A DNA stretch of 64,000 bases from positions 2,531,001 through 2,595,000 of the forward strand of contig NZ_CP113432.1 in assembly GCF_026686735.1 (NCBI RefSeq), read 5' to 3'. Both the position numbers and the translations under genes were made by a program. Each line of letters opens with the position of its first letter. The stretch's first letter is position 1. Source of the stretch: Pseudomonas triclosanedens (lineage in GTDB: Bacteria; Pseudomonadota; Gammaproteobacteria; Pseudomonadales; Pseudomonadaceae). The notes under the pieces are model-generated. The model did not search any database. It was given only the letters and a program-made list of their open reading frames with translations, and had not been told where the DNA came from. This document shows positions 1-9,767 of the stretch, piece after piece.

Positions 1-923
1 GCCACGAAGAGGCTCAGGGCGGCAACCGCGCTGGACAGGTGGAACCCCACCGCGGCGATGCAGATCGAGGCGACGGTGTACATCACCAGCAGGCTGCGGA
101 TACCACCGATGCGATCGGCCAGCGCGCCGCCCATTGGACGCATGAGGCTGCCGGCGAACACGCAGGCGGCGGTGTAGTAGCCCGCCTTGACCGGGTCCAG
201 CCCATACTGGTCGTTGAAGTAGCCGGGCAGTGTGCTGGCCAGGCCAAGGAAGCCGCCGAAGGTCACGCTGTAGAAGAACATGAACCACCAACTGTCGCGG
301 TCACCAAGGGCCTTCAGATAGTCGGCCAGGGATTTGGGCGCTGGGCACCCCGGCGCATTGCGGGCGAACAGGGCGAATACCAGGAGGGTCGCCAGCAAGG
401 GGATCAGCGCGAAGCCGAATACATTCTGCCAGCCGAATGCGGCGGCGATGCCGGGCGCGAACAGTGCGGTGAGCACTGTGCCGGAGTTTCCCGCGCCAGC
501 GATACCCATCGCCTTGCCCTGGTGCTGCGGCGGGTACCACTGCGAGGCCAGGGGCAGCGCTACGGCGAAGGAGGCGCCGGCCATGCCCAGCAGTACGCCC
601 AGCAGAAGGGCATGCTCCAGCGTTTGGATTCCCAGTTGCCAGGCTCCAGACAGCGCGCAGATGACGACTACCTGGCCGAGGATGCCGGCGGCCTTGGGCG
701 ACCAGCGATCGGCCAGCAGGCCCATCAGGAAGCGCAGTACGGCGCCTGAAAGAATCGGTGTGGCCACCATCAGCGCGCGCTGCTGGGTGGACAGTTCGAG
801 GTCGGTGGCGATCTGCACGGCCAGTGGGCCGAGCACGTACCAGACCATGAAGCTCAGGTCGAAATAGAGGAAGGCGGCGAAGAGCGTCGGCGCGTGGCCG
901 GCTTTCCAGAAGCTCGTCTGCAT
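1..923 (-). CDS. nasA: Nitrate/nitrite MFS transporter, NasA/NarK family (3' end outside window)
   Basis: Inner-membrane transporter importing nitrate for assimilation. Reading leftwards from an ATG at 923, about 307 codons are visible and the C-terminus lies beyond position 1. Hydrophobic segments alternate with short loops. The arginine of AVLRFLMG (about residue 64) matches the helix-2 arginine of NarK-type carriers, and GIAGAGNSGT at 140-149 matches the nitrate signature motif. An AGGTG ribosome site lies before the start. The gene follows a leader with a sigma-54 promoter, ANTAR hairpins and a terminator, so it should be made only when nitrogen is limiting and nitrate is present. Family assignment is firm; the substrate rests on the motif and the nasS/nasT neighbours. 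Confidence 0.9.
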   Translation of the reverse strand, partial: MQTSFWKAGHAPTLFAAFLYFDLSFMVWYVLGPLAVQIATDLELSTQQRALMVATPILSGAVLRFLMGLLADRWSPKAAGILGQVVVICALSGAWQLGIQTLEHALLLGVLLGMAGASFAVALPLASQWYPPQHQGKAMGIAGAGNSGTVLTALFAPGIAAAFGWQNVFGFALIPLLATLLVFALFARNAPGCPAPKSLADYLKALGDRDSWWFMFFYSVTFGGFLGLASTLPGYFNDQYGLDPVKAGYYTAACVFAGSLMRPMGGALADRIGGIRSLLVMYTVASICIAAVGFHLSSAVAALSLFV

Positions 924-1011: not shown

Positions 1012-1064
1012 CGAAAAAGGCGTCGCTCCACCCTCGCACTAGGTGCGGGTGCGGATGCGACGCC
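1012..1064 (-). terminator. Leader attenuator (intrinsic terminator) of nasA
   Basis: On the minus strand an 8-bp outer stem (GGCGTCGC with GCGACGCC) encloses CACCC/GGGTG and GCAC/GTGC pairings and ends in TTTTTC. It sits between the predicted transcription start and the nasA start codon, so it would stop transcription prematurely unless disrupted. Its 5' arm overlaps the second ANTAR hairpin at 1058-1071, making the two structures mutually exclusive. Confidence 0.85.
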
Positions 1065-1097
1065 TTTGTCGTAGTTGGGTAACCGCCGTTGATTACC
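1058..1097 (-). promoter_or_regulatory. ANTAR (NasT) two-hairpin RNA target in the nasA leader
   Basis: Hairpin 1 (1078-1097) has a 7-bp stem, GGTAATC with GGTTACC, and a six-base loop AACGGC. Hairpin 2 (1058-1071) has a 4-bp stem, CGAC with GTCG, and a six-base loop AAAGGC. Both loops have A at position 1 and G at position 4, the hallmark of RNA targets of ANTAR antiterminators such as NasR and NasT. A 6-nt linker separates them. Hairpin 2 uses bases of the 5' arm of the terminator, so NasT binding should release the attenuator. Confidence 0.8.
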
Positions 1098-1110
1098 ACC
1101 GGCTGGACTA

Positions 1111-1128
1111 CAGCAAGCGCTGGGCCAA
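1111..1128 (-). promoter_or_regulatory. Sigma-54 promoter of nasA
   Basis: On the minus strand TTGGCCCAGCGCTTGCTG fits the RpoN -24/-12 pattern with the invariant GG and GC exactly 10 nt apart. The predicted start lies about 12 nt downstream, immediately before ANTAR hairpin 1. NtrC activation is expected from known nitrate-assimilation promoters; I could not identify an NtrC enhancer with confidence. Confidence 0.7.
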
Positions 1129-1182
1129 GTGTAAAAAGTCTTTTGGACTCAGTGGATTACCGTGATCCAGCCGTTTTGCGAT

Positions 1183-1228
1183 GCCCCAACGCAGCGCTAG
1201 CGGCGGGGCGCGTGCGCTGCGTTGGGGC
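1183..1228. repeat. 15-bp perfect inverted repeat between the cytochrome gene and nasA promoter
   Basis: GCCCCAACGCAGCGC (1183-1197) is followed after 16 nt by its exact reverse complement (1214-1228). It lies just past the cytochrome c stop. It may help end that transcript, but no T-run follows on the minus strand. A protein-binding site or a REP-like unit are alternatives. Confidence 0.6.
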
Positions 1229-1234
1229 GTGGGC

Positions 1235-1726
1235 TCAGAGCGTTGGTGGGGAGGGAAAGAGCACCACCGGCCCTTGCGGTACGGTCCCTGGCGGCAGGTA
1301 GGCAGGGGCGATCTGGCCGGCCGGGCCAAGGTGACGAAGATAGCGGTAGATACCGCGCAGGTCGTCATCGCTCATGATGCGCAGCACATGGGAGGGCATG
1401 GGTGGCCGGAAGCTCGCCTGGCGCGCGTTGGCCAGCCACTGCTCCTCGCTGTAGCCCTGCATGTACAGGCGCAGGTTGCTGGGATAGGTGGTGCCCCAGG
1501 GGCCGCTCCAGCCCAGTTGATCGCCGGTGAGCCAGGCGCTCTCCGGGACTTTCTCCGGCGCCATCGCGTAGCCGGCGGTGTGGCAGTCGTTGCAGCCGGC
1601 GATCTGCACCAGATAGCGGCCGCGTTGCAGGGAATCGGAGTCCGCAGCTGGTGTTGGCGCGGAAAGGGACATAAGTGGCAGGCACAGACAACCGGACAGC
1701 GCGCCCACCCGAGGGAAGGACGGCAT
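1235..1726 (-). CDS. Periplasmic monohaem c-type cytochrome
   Basis: Small exported electron carrier of 163 residues. The N-terminus is hydrophobic and ends in a plausible signal-peptidase site near residue 28 (PTPAAD). The haem-attachment motif CNDCH is at 45-49 and a candidate axial methionine at 110 in RPPMP. The C-terminal tail is proline-rich. AGGAG precedes the start. It lies between nasA and the alginate-lyase gene, a place where I recall no such gene in P. aeruginosa, so it may be a lineage insertion. Its redox partner cannot be told from sequence; resemblance to diheme-dehydrogenase cytochrome subunits is possible but unproven. Confidence 0.85.
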   Translation of the reverse strand: MPSFPRVGALSGCLCLPLMSLSAPTPAADSDSLQRGRYLVQIAGCNDCHTAGYAMAPEKVPESAWLTGDQLGWSGPWGTTYPSNLRLYMQGYSEEQWLANARQASFRPPMPSHVLRIMSDDDLRGIYRYLRHLGPAGQIAPAYLPPGTVPQGPVVLFPSPPTL

Positions 1727-1805
1727 GGTGTGTATCTCCTCTGATAGCGATCGGGTTCACGGCTCCAGAGGTATAGCGCGTTGTCGGCGTGCCTGCCGGG
1801 ATGGC

Positions 1806-2264
1806 TCAGGCGACCCAGTTGACGTTGGGGAAGGTATCGCGGAAGGCGTCGGGAATCGGGGTGACTTGACCGGCTTTGTAGTCGAAGAACACGAAGCCGG
1901 ATTTTGCCATTGCCACGAGGGTGTCGTCCGCTGGGCGTGTGATGCGGAAGATGATGTCGCCGCCGTACTTGTTGAAGTCCATGACGCCGACCTCGAACAG
2001 CAGTTGGTCGCGGGCGTGCGCTTCGGCGCGGTATGTGGTGGCGAGGTCAGTGACGATGATGCCGGTCTCGCGGATGCCGTAATCGAACAGGAAGCGCGCG
2101 CGGGCCTCAGAAATCATCGAGATCATCGAATCGTTGCCCAGGTGGTTGGCGCCGTTGATGTCGGTGACGCGGACGGTCAGCTTGGTGCTGTAGATGAAGA
2201 GTTCGTCGGGGAATTCCAGTTTCAGGCGGGCCATAGCGATCTCGAATGACGATGAATGCGTCAT
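1806..2264 (-). CDS. Acyl-CoA thioesterase, hotdog fold (4HBT family)
   Basis: Predicted cytoplasmic thioester hydrolase of 152 residues. The segment TVRVTDINGANHLGND resembles the 4-hydroxybenzoyl-CoA thioesterase/YbgC active-site region, followed by the long central helix SMISEARARFLFDYG. The ATG at 2264 has a poor ribosome site; an internal ATG at 2234 (MARLKLEF) gives 142 residues and begins at the usual family position, so it may be the real start. It shares strand with the cytochrome gene, whose start lies 80 nt downstream. Substrate unknown. Confidence 0.8.
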   Translation of the reverse strand: MTHSSSFEIAMARLKLEFPDELFIYSTKLTVRVTDINGANHLGNDSMISMISEARARFLFDYGIRETGIIVTDLATTYRAEAHARDQLLFEVGVMDFNKYGGDIIFRITRPADDTLVAMAKSGFVFFDYKAGQVTPIPDAFRDTFPNVNWVA

Positions 2265-2318
2265 TGTACGAAGCCCGCCACCGGTTTCGCAGTGCCATTG
2301 GCGGGCTGAATGGGAGCC

Positions 2319-3008
2319 TCAGTGCGCTGCGTTGAGGTGATAGAAGGTCACGCGGCCGCCTTCGTCGTCGGCGCCCTTGTTGTCGCTGATGTAGGCGCCA
2401 GCCTTGAAGTAGAGCAATTGCTTGCTCCAGGTCTTGCTCAGGGCCTGGCGGTAATACTGCTTTTCGCCATCGGCGCTCTCTGCGCGCAGGCCGAGCTGGC
2501 CGGAGGATGTGACGCGCAGGCTGTAGGTAACGCGCTCGTTCAGGCGGACATCGGTGAGCAGTGGGATGTTCTTGCTAGCGCTGTCGTCGGGGTGGTTGCG
2601 CACCAGCGCTTCGATGCTGCCGGTCCTGGTCCTGGGATAGTAGTGGTACTGAAGCTTCACCAGTGGCTCGCCATCGCCGCTGGTGGGCGACTTGCTGTGG
2701 ATCTGGCCGATGATGATCTTGTTCTGCGATGGCACACGGCCGACGCTGAGGGTGGCGCGCAGTTCATTGTCGCCACCGCTGTAGTACCAGTTGTAGAGGC
2801 TGCCATCGCGTGACGTTTCGCGCAGCTCGGTGCGCGGGAAGGTACTGTCTTGGGTGTGGGAGCCACCGACGGGGACCCAGAAGACGATGCTGTCGCCGTC
2901 GCGCTTGAAGTAGCGGCTCTGATAACCCTTCTGCAATTGCTGGGTGGGGACTTCGGTGGGGCGGGGTTCGCTGGGGATGGTGAGGTTCCAGGTAGATAGG
3001 TCGATCAT
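2319..3008 (-). CDS. Polysaccharide lyase family 7 (alginate lyase-like), no signal peptide
   Basis: Protein of 229 residues from MIDLSTWN. The three PL7 signatures appear in order: RTELRE at 59-64, QIH at 102-104 and YFKAGAY at 200-206, which carry the catalytic and substrate-binding Arg, Gln, His and Tyr. It should cleave alginate or a related uronate by beta-elimination. The frame is open upstream to 3068, but that extension is arginine-rich and unlike the family, so I place the start at 3008. No secretion signal is visible in either version, so it would act in the cytoplasm or leave by an unusual route. A similar gene lies next to nasT in P. aeruginosa (PA1784). Confidence 0.85.
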   Translation of the reverse strand: MIDLSTWNLTIPSEPRPTEVPTQQLQKGYQSRYFKRDGDSIVFWVPVGGSHTQDSTFPRTELRETSRDGSLYNWYYSGGDNELRATLSVGRVPSQNKIIIGQIHSKSPTSGDGEPLVKLQYHYYPRTRTGSIEALVRNHPDDSASKNIPLLTDVRLNERVTYSLRVTSSGQLGLRAESADGEKQYYRQALSKTWSKQLLYFKAGAYISDNKGADDEGGRVTFYHLNAAH

Positions 3009-3224
3009 GCTGTCTCGCTCGCGATGGGTTCGGGCGCGGCCGGCGGGTTCCTGGCCGGCAGGCCGCACTGCGGACTTCCACGGTCGTGCAATGGAAGCGA
3101 GGGGGACCGCGCAAGGTGCGTCGCGGCGCGGGCAGCATACGCAGCGTGTTCGGCGGCGGGGGCCAGCAGCGCAACTGGCGTTCTGATCGCGGTATGCCGC
3201 CGCTGGCAGATGGCCGGCGGCGCG

Positions 3225-3803
3225 TCATTGCCCGAGCATGTCGTGCATGGCGATGATCTGCTCGGCCACCTGCACCAGCTTCTGTTGACGTCCCATCGCC
3301 TGCCGCCGCATCAGGGTATATGCCTCCTCTTCGGTGCAGCCCTTCATCTTCATCAGCAGTCCCTTGGCCAGCTCGACCCGCTTGCGCTCGGCCAGTTGCT
3401 GTTCGCGGGCCTGGAGCTGCGCGCGCAGCGCCTGGTCGCTCTCGAAGCGCGCCATAGCCACGTCGAGGATCGGCTGCAGGCGCTGCGCCTGGATGCCTTC
3501 GACGATGTAGGCGCTGACCCCGGAGCGGATGGCCTGGCGCATCACCTGCGGGTCGTGCTCGTCGGTGAACATTACGATGGGCCGTGGCTGGTCGCGGCTG
3601 ACCAGCACCACTTGCTCCATCACGTCGCGACCGGGGGACTCGGTGTCGATGAGGATCACATCCGGACGCAGGACTTCCACCCGTTGCGCCAGGTCGATGG
3701 TCAGGCCGGACTCATCGACCACCTCGAAGCCGCTTTCCAGCAGGGCGGCCTTGAGGCGCCCGACTTTCTTCGGGGTGTCGTTGATCAGCAGGACGCGCAG
3801 CAT
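3225..3803 (-). CDS. nasT: Nitrate-responsive antiterminator NasT (ANTAR domain)
   Basis: RNA-binding response regulator of 192 residues. Residues 1-120 form a receiver-like domain with Asp53 in LIDTES; the C-terminal 60 residues form the three-helix ANTAR domain (ERKRVELAKGLLM ... EEEAYTLMRRQAM). Established role of the family: NasS holds NasT when nitrate is absent; nitrate frees NasT, which binds two-hairpin leaders and prevents termination. Two such leaders are visible here, at 1058-1097 and 5061-5101. The start at 3803 lies 2 nt after the nasS stop, so the two genes are co-transcribed. Because its own operon leader carries the target, NasT should stimulate its own synthesis. Confidence 0.95.
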   Translation of the reverse strand: MLRVLLINDTPKKVGRLKAALLESGFEVVDESGLTIDLAQRVEVLRPDVILIDTESPGRDVMEQVVLVSRDQPRPIVMFTDEHDPQVMRQAIRSGVSAYIVEGIQAQRLQPILDVAMARFESDQALRAQLQAREQQLAERKRVELAKGLLMKMKGCTEEEAYTLMRRQAMGRQQKLVQVAEQIIAMHDMLGQ

Positions 3804-3805
3804 GC

Positions 3806-5002
3806 TCAACCTCGCTCTACCAGGGCGTTCAGTTCGAAACCGCGGGCATAGCCGGCGGGATCGCTGCCGTCCCAGATGCGGCCGTCGATCAGTGCCGAAC
3901 TGCGCAGGTCTGCTTCGGGCGCGGCCACGCCCACGGCCTCGGCGGCTTGCCGGTACAGCGCCAGTTGCTGGACCTGGCGGGCGACGCCGAGGTAGTCGAT
4001 GTCGTCGCGCAGCAGGCCCCAGCGACGGAATTGGGTCATGAACCACATGCCGTCGGACAGCCAGGGCATGTTGGCCAGGCCGTGATTGAAGAAGCGCAGC
4101 GGGTGCGCATCCTGCCAGGCGTGGCCGAGCCCGTCCTGGTAGCGGCCGAAAAGGCGGGGCTCGATGCAGGAGAGCGGCGCGTCAACGTACTCATGGCCGC
4201 TGATCAACTGCGCGGTGCTGCGCAGGTTGTCTTCGCTGGCCTCGATGAATCGGCTGGCATCCAGCATGGCCATCACCAGCGCGCGTGCGGTGTTGGGGTA
4301 CTGCTCGACGAAGCCGCGTGTGGTGCCCAGCACCTTTTCCGGGTGATCCGGCCATATCTGCTGGCTGGTCGCCAGTGTGAACCCCATTCCCTCGTCCACC
4401 GCCAGCGCGCCCCACGGGCCTCCTGCGCAGAAGCCGTCGATACGACCGGCCTTGAGGTGCTCCACCATCTGCGCTGGCGGGACCACCAGCGTGCGCACGT
4501 CGTGCAGTGGGTGGATGCCGTGGGCGGCCAGCCAGTAGTTCAACCACAGTGCGTGGGTGCCGGTGGGGAAGGTGTGGGCCAGGGTGAGTCGCGCACCGTT
4601 GTGGATCACGTGATGCCGGAGTGCCTCGACAGAGGTCACGCCATCGCGCAGCAGCGGTGCGGAGAGGTTGATCGACTGGCCGTTCTGACACAGGCCCATG
4701 AGCACGGCCATGTCGGTGGCAGGTGTGCCGCCAAGGCCGAGCTGGATGCCATAGATCATGCCGTAAAGGCTCTGGGCGGCGTCCAGTTCGCCACTGAGCA
4801 GGCGGTCGCGCAGGCTGGCCCAGGAGCTTTGCCTCCGTAGGTTGAGGGTCAGCCCGTAGGGCTGGGCGAAGCCCTGGGTGGCAGCGACTATCAGCGAGGC
4901 AGAGTCGCTGAGGGCCATGAAGCCTAGATTGAGCTCGGTTCTTTCCGGGGCATCGGAGCCGGCAACCCAGGCTAGGCTGTCCGGGCTTGTGCTGTCGATC
5001 AT
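3806..5002 (-). CDS. nasS: Nitrate sensor NasS (NrtA-like binding protein, cytoplasmic)
   Basis: Protein of 398 residues resembling the nitrate-binding protein NrtA but lacking a signal peptide, consistent with cytoplasmic sensing. Conserved NrtA-type segments include LNLGFMALSDSASLIVA near the N-terminus and GRIDGFCAGGPWG in the middle. It binds and restrains NasT and releases it on binding nitrate or nitrite. The start ATG at 5002 has AGGTGG upstream; the frame continues to 5068, but that stretch is the leader terminator and is not translated. First gene of a nasS-nasT operon. Confidence 0.93.
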   Translation of the reverse strand: MIDSTSPDSLAWVAGSDAPERTELNLGFMALSDSASLIVAATQGFAQPYGLTLNLRRQSSWASLRDRLLSGELDAAQSLYGMIYGIQLGLGGTPATDMAVLMGLCQNGQSINLSAPLLRDGVTSVEALRHHVIHNGARLTLAHTFPTGTHALWLNYWLAAHGIHPLHDVRTLVVPPAQMVEHLKAGRIDGFCAGGPWGALAVDEGMGFTLATSQQIWPDHPEKVLGTTRGFVEQYPNTARALVMAMLDASRFIEASEDNLRSTAQLISGHEYVDAPLSCIEPRLFGRYQDGLGHAWQDAHPLRFFNHGLANMPWLSDGMWFMTQFRRWGLLRDDIDYLGVARQVQQLALYRQAAEAVGVAAPEADLRSSALIDGRIWDGSDPAGYARGFELNALVERG

Positions 5003-5016
5003 TTCCACCTCTGAAT

Positions 5017-5066
5017 GCAAAAGGCGCCGCTCCACGGACCGTCGGTGGACGGGTGGATACGACGCC
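5017..5066 (-). terminator. Leader attenuator (intrinsic terminator) of nasS-nasT
   Basis: Minus strand: GGCGTCG pairs with CGGCGCC (7 bp, one G-T pair), enclosing CCAC/GTGG and CCGTC/GACGG, and is followed by TTTT. It sits 14 nt before the nasS ATG. The outer stem closely resembles the nasA attenuator, and its 5' arm overlaps ANTAR hairpin 2 at 5061-5072. Confidence 0.85.
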
Positions 5067-5101
5067 ATTGTCTGTCAGGGGCCCACCGTTGGGCTGCCTG
5101 A
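5061..5101 (-). promoter_or_regulatory. ANTAR (NasT) two-hairpin RNA target in the nasS leader
   Basis: Hairpin 1 (5075-5101) has a lower stem TCAGG/CCTGA, an internal loop and an upper stem GCCC/GGGC closing the six-base loop AACGGT. Hairpin 2 (5061-5072) has a short stem GAC/GTC and loop AATGGC. Both loops have A1 and G4. Hairpin 2 shares bases with the 5' arm of the terminator, so it acts as the antiterminating form. Confidence 0.8.
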
Positions 5102-5112
5102 GATCATGGGCT

Positions 5113-5130
5113 CAGCAAGGGATGTGCCAG
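5113..5130 (-). promoter_or_regulatory. Sigma-54 promoter of nasS-nasT
   Basis: Minus strand CTGGCACATCCCTTGCTG is a near-perfect RpoN site (TGGCAC-N5-TTGC, GG and GC 10 nt apart). The predicted start lies about 12 nt downstream, directly before ANTAR hairpin 1. Confidence 0.85.
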
Positions 5131-8110: not shown

Positions 8111-8234
8111 AGAAGCTGTTTTCAAAGTTTTACGCCGGTGTGGCCTGGGACGAGTGGGCCTGGACGCTTGAGGGGTGCGCCAGGCCGCGCGGCTGCCGGA
8201 ATCTGTGCTTCGTGACGCTTTGAAAACAGCTTCT
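8111..8234. repeat. Pair of 17-bp perfect inverted repeats upstream of acnB
   Basis: AGAAGCTGTTTTCAAAG at 8111-8127 recurs as its exact reverse complement at 8218-8234, with 90 bp between. The unit is 124 bp. It lies between the acnB GTG (7992) and the divergent DUF1289 gene (8373). No flanking target duplication is evident, so a mobile-element origin is unproven. It could be a pair of regulator sites or a long-range RNA stem in the acnB leader. Confidence 0.7.
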
Positions 8235-8372
8235 TTCGGACAATGACGCCAAAAAGGCGGAGCAATTCTAATGGAAAAAGGCCGTGTTGGTAAGCCGATT
8301 TACCGCACCTCAAAGGGTGATCTTGCCTAGACAAAGGGCTAAGATGCCGGCTTTGCCCGTAACCTGTTCGCC

Positions 8373-8849
8373 ATGTCTTCTCAGCGTATCAAAACCCCCT
8401 GCGTCGGCCTTTGCTCGACGGTCTACGGTGACCTGGTCTGCCGTGGCTGCAAGCGTTTCCACCACGAGGTGGTGAACTGGAATGGTTACAGCGACGACGA
8501 GAAGCGTTCGGTGTGGACGCGCCTGGAACTGCTGCTGGGGCAGGTGATGATGGCCAAGGTCGAGGTCTTCGATCCGCAGCGTCTGCGCGTGCAGCTTGAG
8601 CAGCGGCAGATCCGCTTCGTCCCCGATCAGTCGCCGTATTGCTGGGCCTATCAGTTGATTGCCCGTGGCTCGCGGATGATCAACCAACTGGAGGCATATG
8701 GCCTGGCGCTGCTGCCGGAATTCCGTGGCTGGGCATTGCCGGACCTGCGCGATGCGATCGACAAGGAGTTCTTCATCCTTTCCGAGGCGCACTATGAGCG
8801 CTATATCGCACCGCGATTCCTGGCCGAGGGCATGGAAACGCGCATCTGA
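8373..8849 (+). CDS. DUF1289 domain protein
   Basis: Cytoplasmic protein of 158 residues. The N-terminus carries the DUF1289 cysteine pattern, C10-x3-C14-x8-C23-x2-C26 (TPCVGLCSTV ... CRGC), which probably binds zinc or an Fe-S cluster. The rest is a helical region rich in Arg, Leu and aromatic residues and longer than the minimal DUF1289 unit. The equivalent P. aeruginosa gene (PA1788) sits beside acnB in the same orientation. Function unknown. The gene is followed at once by a bidirectional terminator. Confidence 0.85.
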   Translation: MSSQRIKTPCVGLCSTVYGDLVCRGCKRFHHEVVNWNGYSDDEKRSVWTRLELLLGQVMMAKVEVFDPQRLRVQLEQRQIRFVPDQSPYCWAYQLIARGSRMINQLEAYGLALLPEFRGWALPDLRDAIDKEFFILSEAHYERYIAPRFLAEGMETRI

Positions 8850-8863
8850 GCAACCCGCCATTG

Positions 8864-8890
8864 AAAAAGCCGCCCTGGAGGCGGCTTTTT
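8864..8890. terminator. Bidirectional terminator between DUF1289 and usp genes
   Basis: AAAAAGCCGCC, a short loop, GGCGGCTTTTT. It lies between converging genes and should serve both. Confidence 0.9.
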
Positions 8891-8903
8891 CTTGGAGGTG
8901 CGT

Positions 8904-9767
8904 CTAGCGTTGGGCGACCAGTTCCTCAAGGTGGGCGATGATGTCGTCCGGCTTGAGGACCAGAATGTCGCTTTCCAGCGCGTCGAGCACGACTTCGGCG
9001 GTATTGCCGATCAGAGCGCCGGAAAAGCCGGTGCGCGCCACGGTGCCGATCACCGTCACAGCCGTGTCGAGGTGATGGGCGGTGCTCGGTATGAGTACGT
9101 CCGCCGGGCCTTCCTCGATGTGCAGGTGCTCGTCGTCGACGCCATATTCCGCCTGGAAGGCGCGGCAGGCCTCGCGGTACTTCGCTTCGATGGTCTCGCT
9201 GAGCTGGAAGGTCGGGTCAGCGGCCGAAAGCATCGGCGAGGGGTGGGCGCTGATCACGTGCAACTGGCCATGTGCCAGGCCGGCGATGTCGTAGGCATGG
9301 CTGACGATTCCCGCATGCAGCGTGCGGTGCTCCGCGTCATTGTTGCCAACATCCACGGCGGCGAGAATGTTGCGGCCGGCCCAGGGCTGTTCGGTCTTTA
9401 CCAGCAGCACAGGGGCGGGGCAGTAGCGCAGCAGCTTCCAGTCATCCGGGGTCAGCAGCGCCTTCTTCAGTGGGTTGTCCGGGCTGTGCTGCTTGATCAC
9501 CAGGCCGCAGCCCTCGGCTTGCTGCTCGGCAATGATGGTGTGGTGCAGGCTGTCTTTCCAGGCTTGCCGGCATGATGCGCTGAAACCTTCCTGGAGCAGG
9601 GCTCCGGTGGTTTCTTCGAGTTGAGCGCTGAAGTCGCCGCGCTTCTCGCAGGCCAGCAGGTGCAGGTGGGACTGTGTGACGCTGGCGATCAGTCTGGCCC
9701 GTTTGAGGGCGAGACCGTCCGGCTGGTCGGGGTCCACGACTACGAGGATGCTACGGATGGCTTGCAT
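8904..9767 (-). CDS. Tandem universal stress protein (UspE-like)
   Basis: Protein of 287 residues made of two Usp domains, about 1-140 and 150-287. The second has a glycine-rich nucleotide-binding loop (GTVARTGFSGALIGNTAE) like that of UspE; the first lacks it. GGGAG precedes the ATG. An Anr-type box at 9835-9848 is centred about 41 nt before a predicted start with TACAGT as -10, the class II arrangement, so induction under oxygen limitation is expected. The P. aeruginosa counterpart, PA1789, belongs to the Anr-controlled usp set as I recall it. Confidence 0.9.
   Translation of the reverse strand: MQAIRSILVVVDPDQPDGLALKRARLIASVTQSHLHLLACEKRGDFSAQLEETTGALLQEGFSASCRQAWKDSLHHTIIAEQQAEGCGLVIKQHSPDNPLKKALLTPDDWKLLRYCPAPVLLVKTEQPWAGRNILAAVDVGNNDAEHRTLHAGIVSHAYDIAGLAHGQLHVISAHPSPMLSAADPTFQLSETIEAKYREACRAFQAEYGVDDEHLHIEEGPADVLIPSTAHHLDTAVTVIGTVARTGFSGALIGNTAEVVLDALESDILVLKPDDIIAHLEELVAQR

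Follow-up and report, generated by a model that had tools for sequence, protein, structure and literature searches.

For EutV, it is established that antitermination works through a two-hairpin RNA element with A1/G4 hexaloops whose second hairpin excludes a terminator (PMC3369931, accessible text). The nasS leader described here likewise carries tandem A1/G4 hexaloop hairpins, the second overlapping a terminator; unlike the phosphorylation-activated EutV-EutW system (same text), NasT is freed by a nitrate-binding partner. In Paracoccus, nitrate or nitrite dissociates the NasS-NasT complex, and NasT binds the nasA leader (accessible text of PMC3795266). NasT leaders of nasA and nirBD (narK RNA, RF03032; Pseudomonas in this work, Paracoccus in the available portions of PMC3795266 and PMC5424462) likewise combine two ANTAR hairpins, an overlapping terminator, and the same trans factor, and those of Pseudomonas also share a sigma-54 site with the nasS leader; unlike them, the nasS leader would control the sensor and regulator operon itself. 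A further precedent is AmiC-AmiR of the Pseudomonas aeruginosa amidase operon, likewise a ligand sensor holding an ANTAR regulator. There, the regulator genes lie inside the operon whose leader AmiR opens (amiECBRS; PMC3369936, accessible text), so that feedback is built in, whereas nasST have a dedicated leader and promoter rather than a place within a catabolic operon. The Paracoccus regulator operon is likewise induced under nitrogen limitation, from an NtrC-dependent nasT promoter, and the available text of PMC5424462 describes an NtrC site for nasTS and hairpins for nasA only. The leader RNA belongs to a known Rfam family and works by a known type of mechanism, and AmiC-AmiR is a precedent for a regulator behind its own antitermination leader. 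Azotobacter also has NasT leaders of the nasA/nirBD kind, and its nasST genes are reportedly under weak, autogenous control. We found no published NasT leader ahead of nasST, and literature searches for the narK motif returned nothing relevant; the primary NasT and narK RNA papers lay beyond the reach of these searches, so we make no claim to priority.

The window, i.e., the whole stretch of DNA analyzed, spans 64,000 nt of the Pseudomonas triclosanedens genome. In its acnB-nasS gap, on the minus strand at 5019-5129 and ending 16 nt ahead of nasS, lie all the parts that a sequence-only reading had claimed for this place: a sigma-54 site, the loops AACGGT and AATGGC, and an attenuator. The sigma-54-type -24/-12 promoter of nasST (TGGCACATCCCTTGCT, 5114-5129) is followed by hairpin P1 (5075-5101), identified by folding and covariation, with hexaloop AACGGT at 5090-5085, and by hairpin P2 (GAC-AATGGC-GTC, 5061-5072), with its loop at 5069-5064. 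P2 overlaps the 5' arm of an intrinsic terminator identified by folding (5019-5066; stem 5066-5023, T tract 5022-5019), and the two structures are mutually exclusive. A Shine-Dalgarno-like AGAGGTGGA, located by eye at 5004-5012, forms a ribosome site between the terminator and the nasS ATG at 5002. The leader thus shows the ANTAR arrangement of tandem hairpins of at least three pairs each with A1/G4 hexaloops, the second overlapping and excluding an intrinsic terminator. Its P1-P2 linker measures 9 nt counted from the inner P1 stem and 2 nt from the full stem; in the EutV system, a linker of either 3 or 14 bases functioned badly (accessible text of PMC3369931). With a T tract of only four residues and a P2 stem of only three pairs, the window copy ranks among the weaker nasS leaders. 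A simple terminator scan requiring at least five T in 8 bases did not list the nasS terminator, and its sole entry at nasA was a stem (1035-1016) within the 3' part of the nasA terminator. A designed leader peptide starting at the in-frame ATG of the P2 loop (5068-5066; ORF 3806-5068) was considered and rejected because this ATG is not conserved: the loop reads AAAGGC in 15 and AACGGC in 5 of 75 nasS leaders.

The leader precedes nasS (3806-5002, minus strand), which encodes a cytoplasmic nitrate/nitrite sensor with an NMT1-like domain (PF13379, 290.3 bits), and nasT (3225-3803, minus strand), which starts 2 nt after the nasS stop and encodes a pseudo-receiver and ANTAR RNA-binding regulator (PF03861, 63.9 bits). 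NasT is the single match of an ANTAR family search of the whole genome, which contains three leaders of NasT type, before nasA, nasS, and nirB. The nasA leader (1014-1127, minus strand), delineated from Rfam, folding, and inspection by eye, has its parts in the same order as that of nasS: a sigma-54 site at 1127-1112, P1 loop AACGGC, P2 GAC-AAAGGC-GTC, and a terminator. Behind it lies a gene for a major-facilitator-type nitrate transporter cut by the window edge (1-923, minus strand; ATG at 923 by eye), which is presumably nasA; its frame matches ORF 8213-9532 of locus L150 and resembles the proteins of relatives. The third leader (minus strand, G000:C1:2528819-2528921, locus L139) lies outside the window, before a gene whose first 373 residues match NirB (439 bits). 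Inspection by eye reveals a sigma-54-like site, hairpin loops of sequence AACGAA and AAAGGC, and a terminator in which the shared GGCGTCC recurs. This leader scores 29.4 bits with the leader model built in the present analysis and 20.4 bits with that of Rfam, below the cut-off, probably owing to its longer inter-hairpin spacer. Given three leaders and a single ANTAR protein in the genome, NasT is their obvious reader, if any ANTAR protein reads them. Leaders and ANTAR genes also occur together across genomes: all 35 leader-model-positive genomes of the class sample fall among the 97 of 321 that are ANTAR positive, and in the family sample ANTAR was found in 87 of 90 model-positive versus 2 of 29 model-negative genomes, although Fisher values of ~4e-21 overstate this evidence, the genomes being related and kinship uncorrected.

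The Rfam narK RNA (RF03032, cut-off 43.2 bits) matches the window on the strand of the nitrate genes, with 66.4 bits at nasA and 47.6 bits at nasS (5059-5128, minus strand), the latter match ending 56 nt before the nasS ATG. It exceeds the cut-off in none of 14 control genomes and is present in all 25 genomes of a genus sample. The match lies directly upstream of nasS in 19 of these 25, including the window's own genome; 14 of the 19, again including the window's, are over the Rfam cut-off and 5 below it, and in one sampled genome (G002) nasS runs into the contig end. The RF03032 consensus opens with GGCaCAgcucUUGCU (model positions 1-15, equivalent to 5128-5114 and 1126-1112 of the window). 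This sequence is a sigma-54 -24/-12 element, expected to precede the transcript start. The Rfam structure line has one hairpin only, P1, with P2 absent. RF03032 is best interpreted as the combination of a sigma-54 promoter and a two-hairpin NasT leader.

When the leader was compared with those of other pseudomonads, as proposed in the sequence-only reading, 75 of 80 named loci proved to have it in full; these loci were fetched by NasS and are the best 80 of 588 confirmed relatives. Since 53 of these 75 were in the seed alignment of the leader model (A1, 54 rows with the window), the independent Rfam counts of the genus sample matter. In the 119-genome family sample, a complete leader lies upstream of 60 of 85 nasS genes, 54 with a listed model match right upstream and 6 (group g5) clear by eye; matches were listed down to E ~3e-7 under strict filters, and all 31 nasS genes without a listed match were read by eye. 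A gene was counted among the 85 at 64% identity or more. Weaker or partial matches were dropped, as were 15 of 58-62% identity (2 with a model match upstream), these because similar proteins look like transport proteins, a judgment not made gene by gene. The leader occurs in most nasS-bearing genera of the family sample, and duplicated nasST keep it: all 17 nasS genes in the 11 nasS-bearing genomes of group g11, six of them with two copies, have the leader. The attenuator is missing or decayed, and therefore dispensable, in 25 of the 85 nasS genes. Fourteen retain the sigma-54 site only (all 11 of group g15, two of g9, and that of G074), nine of the 12 in group g6 have neither part at the usual place, and two are decayed (G004 and G015).

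Self-control leaders outside the family, hinted at by model matches beside NasS-like genes in the class sample, were rejected. Thirteen of 17 NasS-like genes read (L199-L215; 49-57% identity) encode transport binding proteins with twin-arginine-type signal sequences recognizable by eye, and the other four (L201, L204, L210, and L215) had no model match upstream among the matches listed. The gene-by-gene reading covered these 17 and no NasS-like match of 44% or less, and restriction of the nasS leader to the family holds only for the present 321 genomes. In six of the 17 loci, all from other families (L199, L206, L209, L211, L212, and L214), a model match stands directly before a twin-arginine-type nitrate-binding-protein-like gene, and at five of these six the leader is immediately preceded by an ANTAR gene.

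The hairpins themselves bear marks of constraint. Across 54 nasS leaders, the bases of P1 differ while its pairing tends to persist, and for 9 of its 10 pairs at least one leader has both partners changed. The covariation score of P1 plus P2 is 0.252 versus 0.104 for shuffled alignments (at most 0.099 with one side slid), and 94 cells are changed on both sides versus 39.8, values that none of 500 shuffles reach; 79.5% of cells pair versus 68.2% after shuffling. Two of the five covariation measures are less striking, namely, pairs with a double change (9 versus 7.0, with 35 of 500 shuffles as high) and pair types (27 versus 23.8, with 37 of 500 as high), and the variation is almost all in P1. 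The GAC/GTC arms of P2 are invariant in all 54 leaders, so covariation lends no support to P2 itself; this invariance is expected because the same bases act as hairpin arm and terminator arm. The pattern GAC-N6-GTC fits 75 of 76 leaders examined, with G at loop position 4 in all 75 and, at position 1, A in 70 and G in 5. A1 and G4 of the P1 loop are each at least 90% conserved, as counted from the alignment, since the P1 finder itself rewards both bases. Among close relatives of the window, the P2 loop reads GATGAC in L032, L034, and L057 and GACAGC in G015; this drift indicates that selection on the P2 loop may be weak in the window's subclade.

The segment 5106-5019 folds at -43.2 kcal/mol (z -3.7), lower than any of 200 shuffles, whereas the two-hairpin part alone does no better than shuffles (z -0.9, with 41 of 200 as low), so that it is the comparative data that carry this part. 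Forcing P2 in the window yields -30.1 kcal/mol, a cost of 13 kcal/mol; the terminator is thus what forms by default, and P2 must be favored by a protein or by timing. Of 75 nasS leaders, 73 have a minimum-energy fold in which the P2 3' arm is paired with terminator sequence, the two exceptions including L086, which was analyzed as a shortened sequence. P1 stays free in the folded terminated RNA of the window.

At the nasS promoter, GG and GC doublets stand 10 nt apart in TGGCNNNNNNNTTGC, as expected of sigma-54 elements, and TGGCN7TTGC occurs upstream of nasS in every one of the 80 named loci (best 80 of 588). By itself the sigma-54 pattern does not exceed chance in the window (4 occurrences versus 1.8 expected; 8 of 100 shuffles have as many), and the case for promoter and leader therefore rests on their combination and conservation. 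An NtrC palindrome, GCACN7GTGC, upstream of the sigma-54 site was rejected as evidence, the best sites in 81 regions being no better than those of shuffles. RpoN and NtrC dependence is predicted for the window species, and expression data come from its relatives. Under swarming conditions, an ntrC mutant of P. aeruginosa PA14 has nasS down 91-fold and nasT 83-fold (PMC7214821, accessible text), and both genes are strongly down in a Pseudomonas stutzeri ntrC mutant (available text of PMC8443478). Pseudomonas putida nasT rises 7.25-fold in the wild type under nitrogen limitation and 4.0-fold, not significantly, in an rpoN mutant (PMC7801951, accessible text), an equivocal result.

Taken together, the Rfam match, the conservation, and the sole ANTAR protein support a NasT-type attenuator leader before nasS-nasT, and the positive feedback with comade NasS that the sequence-only reading had proposed is likely. 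We consider it very probable that this leader is a NasT-operated transcription attenuator controlling nasS-nasT itself. Under nitrogen limitation, NtrC-activated sigma-54 polymerase would start the nasST transcript. Sigma-54 transcripts begin ~12 nt after the -12 element; from this spacing the predicted start would place P1 at the extreme 5' terminus of the transcript. In the absence of nitrate, NasS would hold NasT, P2 would yield to the terminator, and most transcripts would end before nasS, leaving a basal supply of NasS and NasT. Nitrate or nitrite would then cause NasS to release NasT. For the window species, we predict that free NasT binds P1 and P2 and holds the terminator 5' arm in P2, so that polymerase reads into nasS-nasT. 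Such read-through would raise NasS and NasT together, a nitrate-gated, nitrogen-limited positive feedback with its brake comade. The regulator probably raises its own production with nitrate in many Pseudomonas species.

The same parts could be arranged into other circuits. The terminator might be a fixed brake that lowers nasST output, NasT no longer acting in the window's subclade, where loops and T tract have drifted. The short T tract and three-pair P2 of the window would fit such a loss of function, as would the loop drift of its nearest relatives and the decay in G004 and G015; yet A1 and G4 are preserved in the loops of both window hairpins, the P2 arms do not vary over the 54 leaders, and duplicated nasST copies keep the leader, all of which renders a fixed brake improbable. 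Alternatively, a strong sigma-54 promoter could yield short terminated RNAs that act as decoys, soaking up NasT and damping the response. Sponge RNAs act in this way in the ethanolamine systems of Listeria and Enterococcus. That P1 is free in the terminated RNA, together with the sigma-54 motif present before nasS in all the named loci, would suit a decoy, but the terminator sequesters the P2 3' arm in nearly all folds, leaving the terminated RNA one hairpin only to offer, and a terminator right before a gene, with a ribosome site behind it, fits cis control better. We regard the decoy as highly improbable and retain NasT-operated attenuation as the preferred reading.

The origin of the leader is a separate matter. 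The sequence-only reading had taken the similarity of the attenuator arms as a sign of duplication, and the window does give it some ground: its nasS and nasA leaders are 61% identical over 84 aligned columns and have the GTCG-ATCC and GTGGAGCG stretches in common. The wider comparison does not bear this out. Identity between nasS and nasA leaders averages 0.547 within a genome (46 pairs) and 0.535 between genomes, while mean identity within a gene is 0.62 for nasS, 0.76 for nasA, and 0.83 for nirB, so that by sequence the leaders group by gene, not by genome; in this comparison the nasA and nirB labels of PA7 were assigned by hand. Terminators with P2 removed give the same picture in the window's group (A), with 0.648 within a genome (10 pairs), 0.647 between genomes, and 0.62 against other groups over a shuffled baseline of 0.558. 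The common stretch includes GGCGTC, which recurs in the nirB leader and is forced, serving simultaneously as loop, P2 3' arm, and terminator 5' arm. With the nasS leader present, moreover, in most nasS-bearing genera of the family sample, a recent duplication of the nasA leader, or its upkeep by gene conversion, is extremely unlikely. An ancient common origin of the leaders, before the spread of the family, is possible.

On a NasS tree, attenuator state changes at least nine times, or six counting well-supported branches alone, against a shuffled mean of 18.6. The tree is quick and midpoint rooted and covers a selection of 105 rows (the window, all 80 named loci, and 24 more), 20 of them labeled as lacking the attenuator: 14 with the sigma-54 site only, 2 decayed, and 4 with neither. 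The evidence favors repeated loss over repeated gain, a direction inferred from the wide occurrence of the leader and from remnants such as G074 and the decayed G004 and G015. The G074 nasS leader (L273), without hairpins but still with its sigma-54 site and a TTTTTT tract, looks like one from which the attenuator was excised. These events are best read as attenuator losses mostly with the sigma-54 site kept, including that of P. aeruginosa PA7. Five of the named loci (best 80 of 588) are without a nasS attenuator: PA7, linyingensis, sagittaria, alkylphenolica, and fragi. Other model leaders remain in PA7, alkylphenolica, and fragi, before nasA and/or nirB, and in linyingensis and sagittaria before another putative transport gene; the target branch therefore persists where self-control was lost. 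NasS of L053, from a genome of the window's genus (G018), groups with Pseudomonas alkylphenolica L126 on the tree (support 99), and L053 has a short leader without attenuator, similar to that of L126. Horizontal transfer of the nas cluster involving G018 is possible.

The surroundings of nasST hold further features. A minus-strand stretch at 5330-5140 (GGAACCCTCCAGAGGTGCGCTCCCTTCCTCTGCGCCCCGCC...), which separates the acnB terminator (5367-5339) from the nasS promoter, is conserved in close relatives and ends in a terminator of its own (5168-5149). This stretch is a candidate small RNA; an Rfam search of the acnB-nasS gap gave only subthreshold matches for it. Between nasT and the nasA leader (1128-3224) lie a 163-aa ORF (1235-1726), a 152-aa ORF (1806-2264), and an alginate lyase gene (2319-3020). 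In 32 of 33 fluorescens-type loci, the nasA leader begins 0.64-0.89 kb past the end of the NasS match, leaving room for little beyond nasT, and in L131 the distance is 1.39 kb.

A broader proposal is that nitrate-gated feedback on the sensor-regulator pair is old in Pseudomonadaceae and was lost many times, often through loss of the attenuator only with the sigma-54 promoter retained, and that it gives cells a memory in the form of a primed or bistable nitrate response. We put this forward as speculation that is rather unlikely to hold in full. If true, close relatives with and without the loop would constitute a ready natural experiment. Work on P. aeruginosa NasT would miss the loop if the usual strains, like PA7, are without the leader. 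With the regulator operon joining the likely NasT regulon, a linear induction pathway would become a feedback circuit whose presence varies among close relatives, and its value in speed, amplification, or nitrate memory could be tested by species comparison or by a deletion of ~90 nt.
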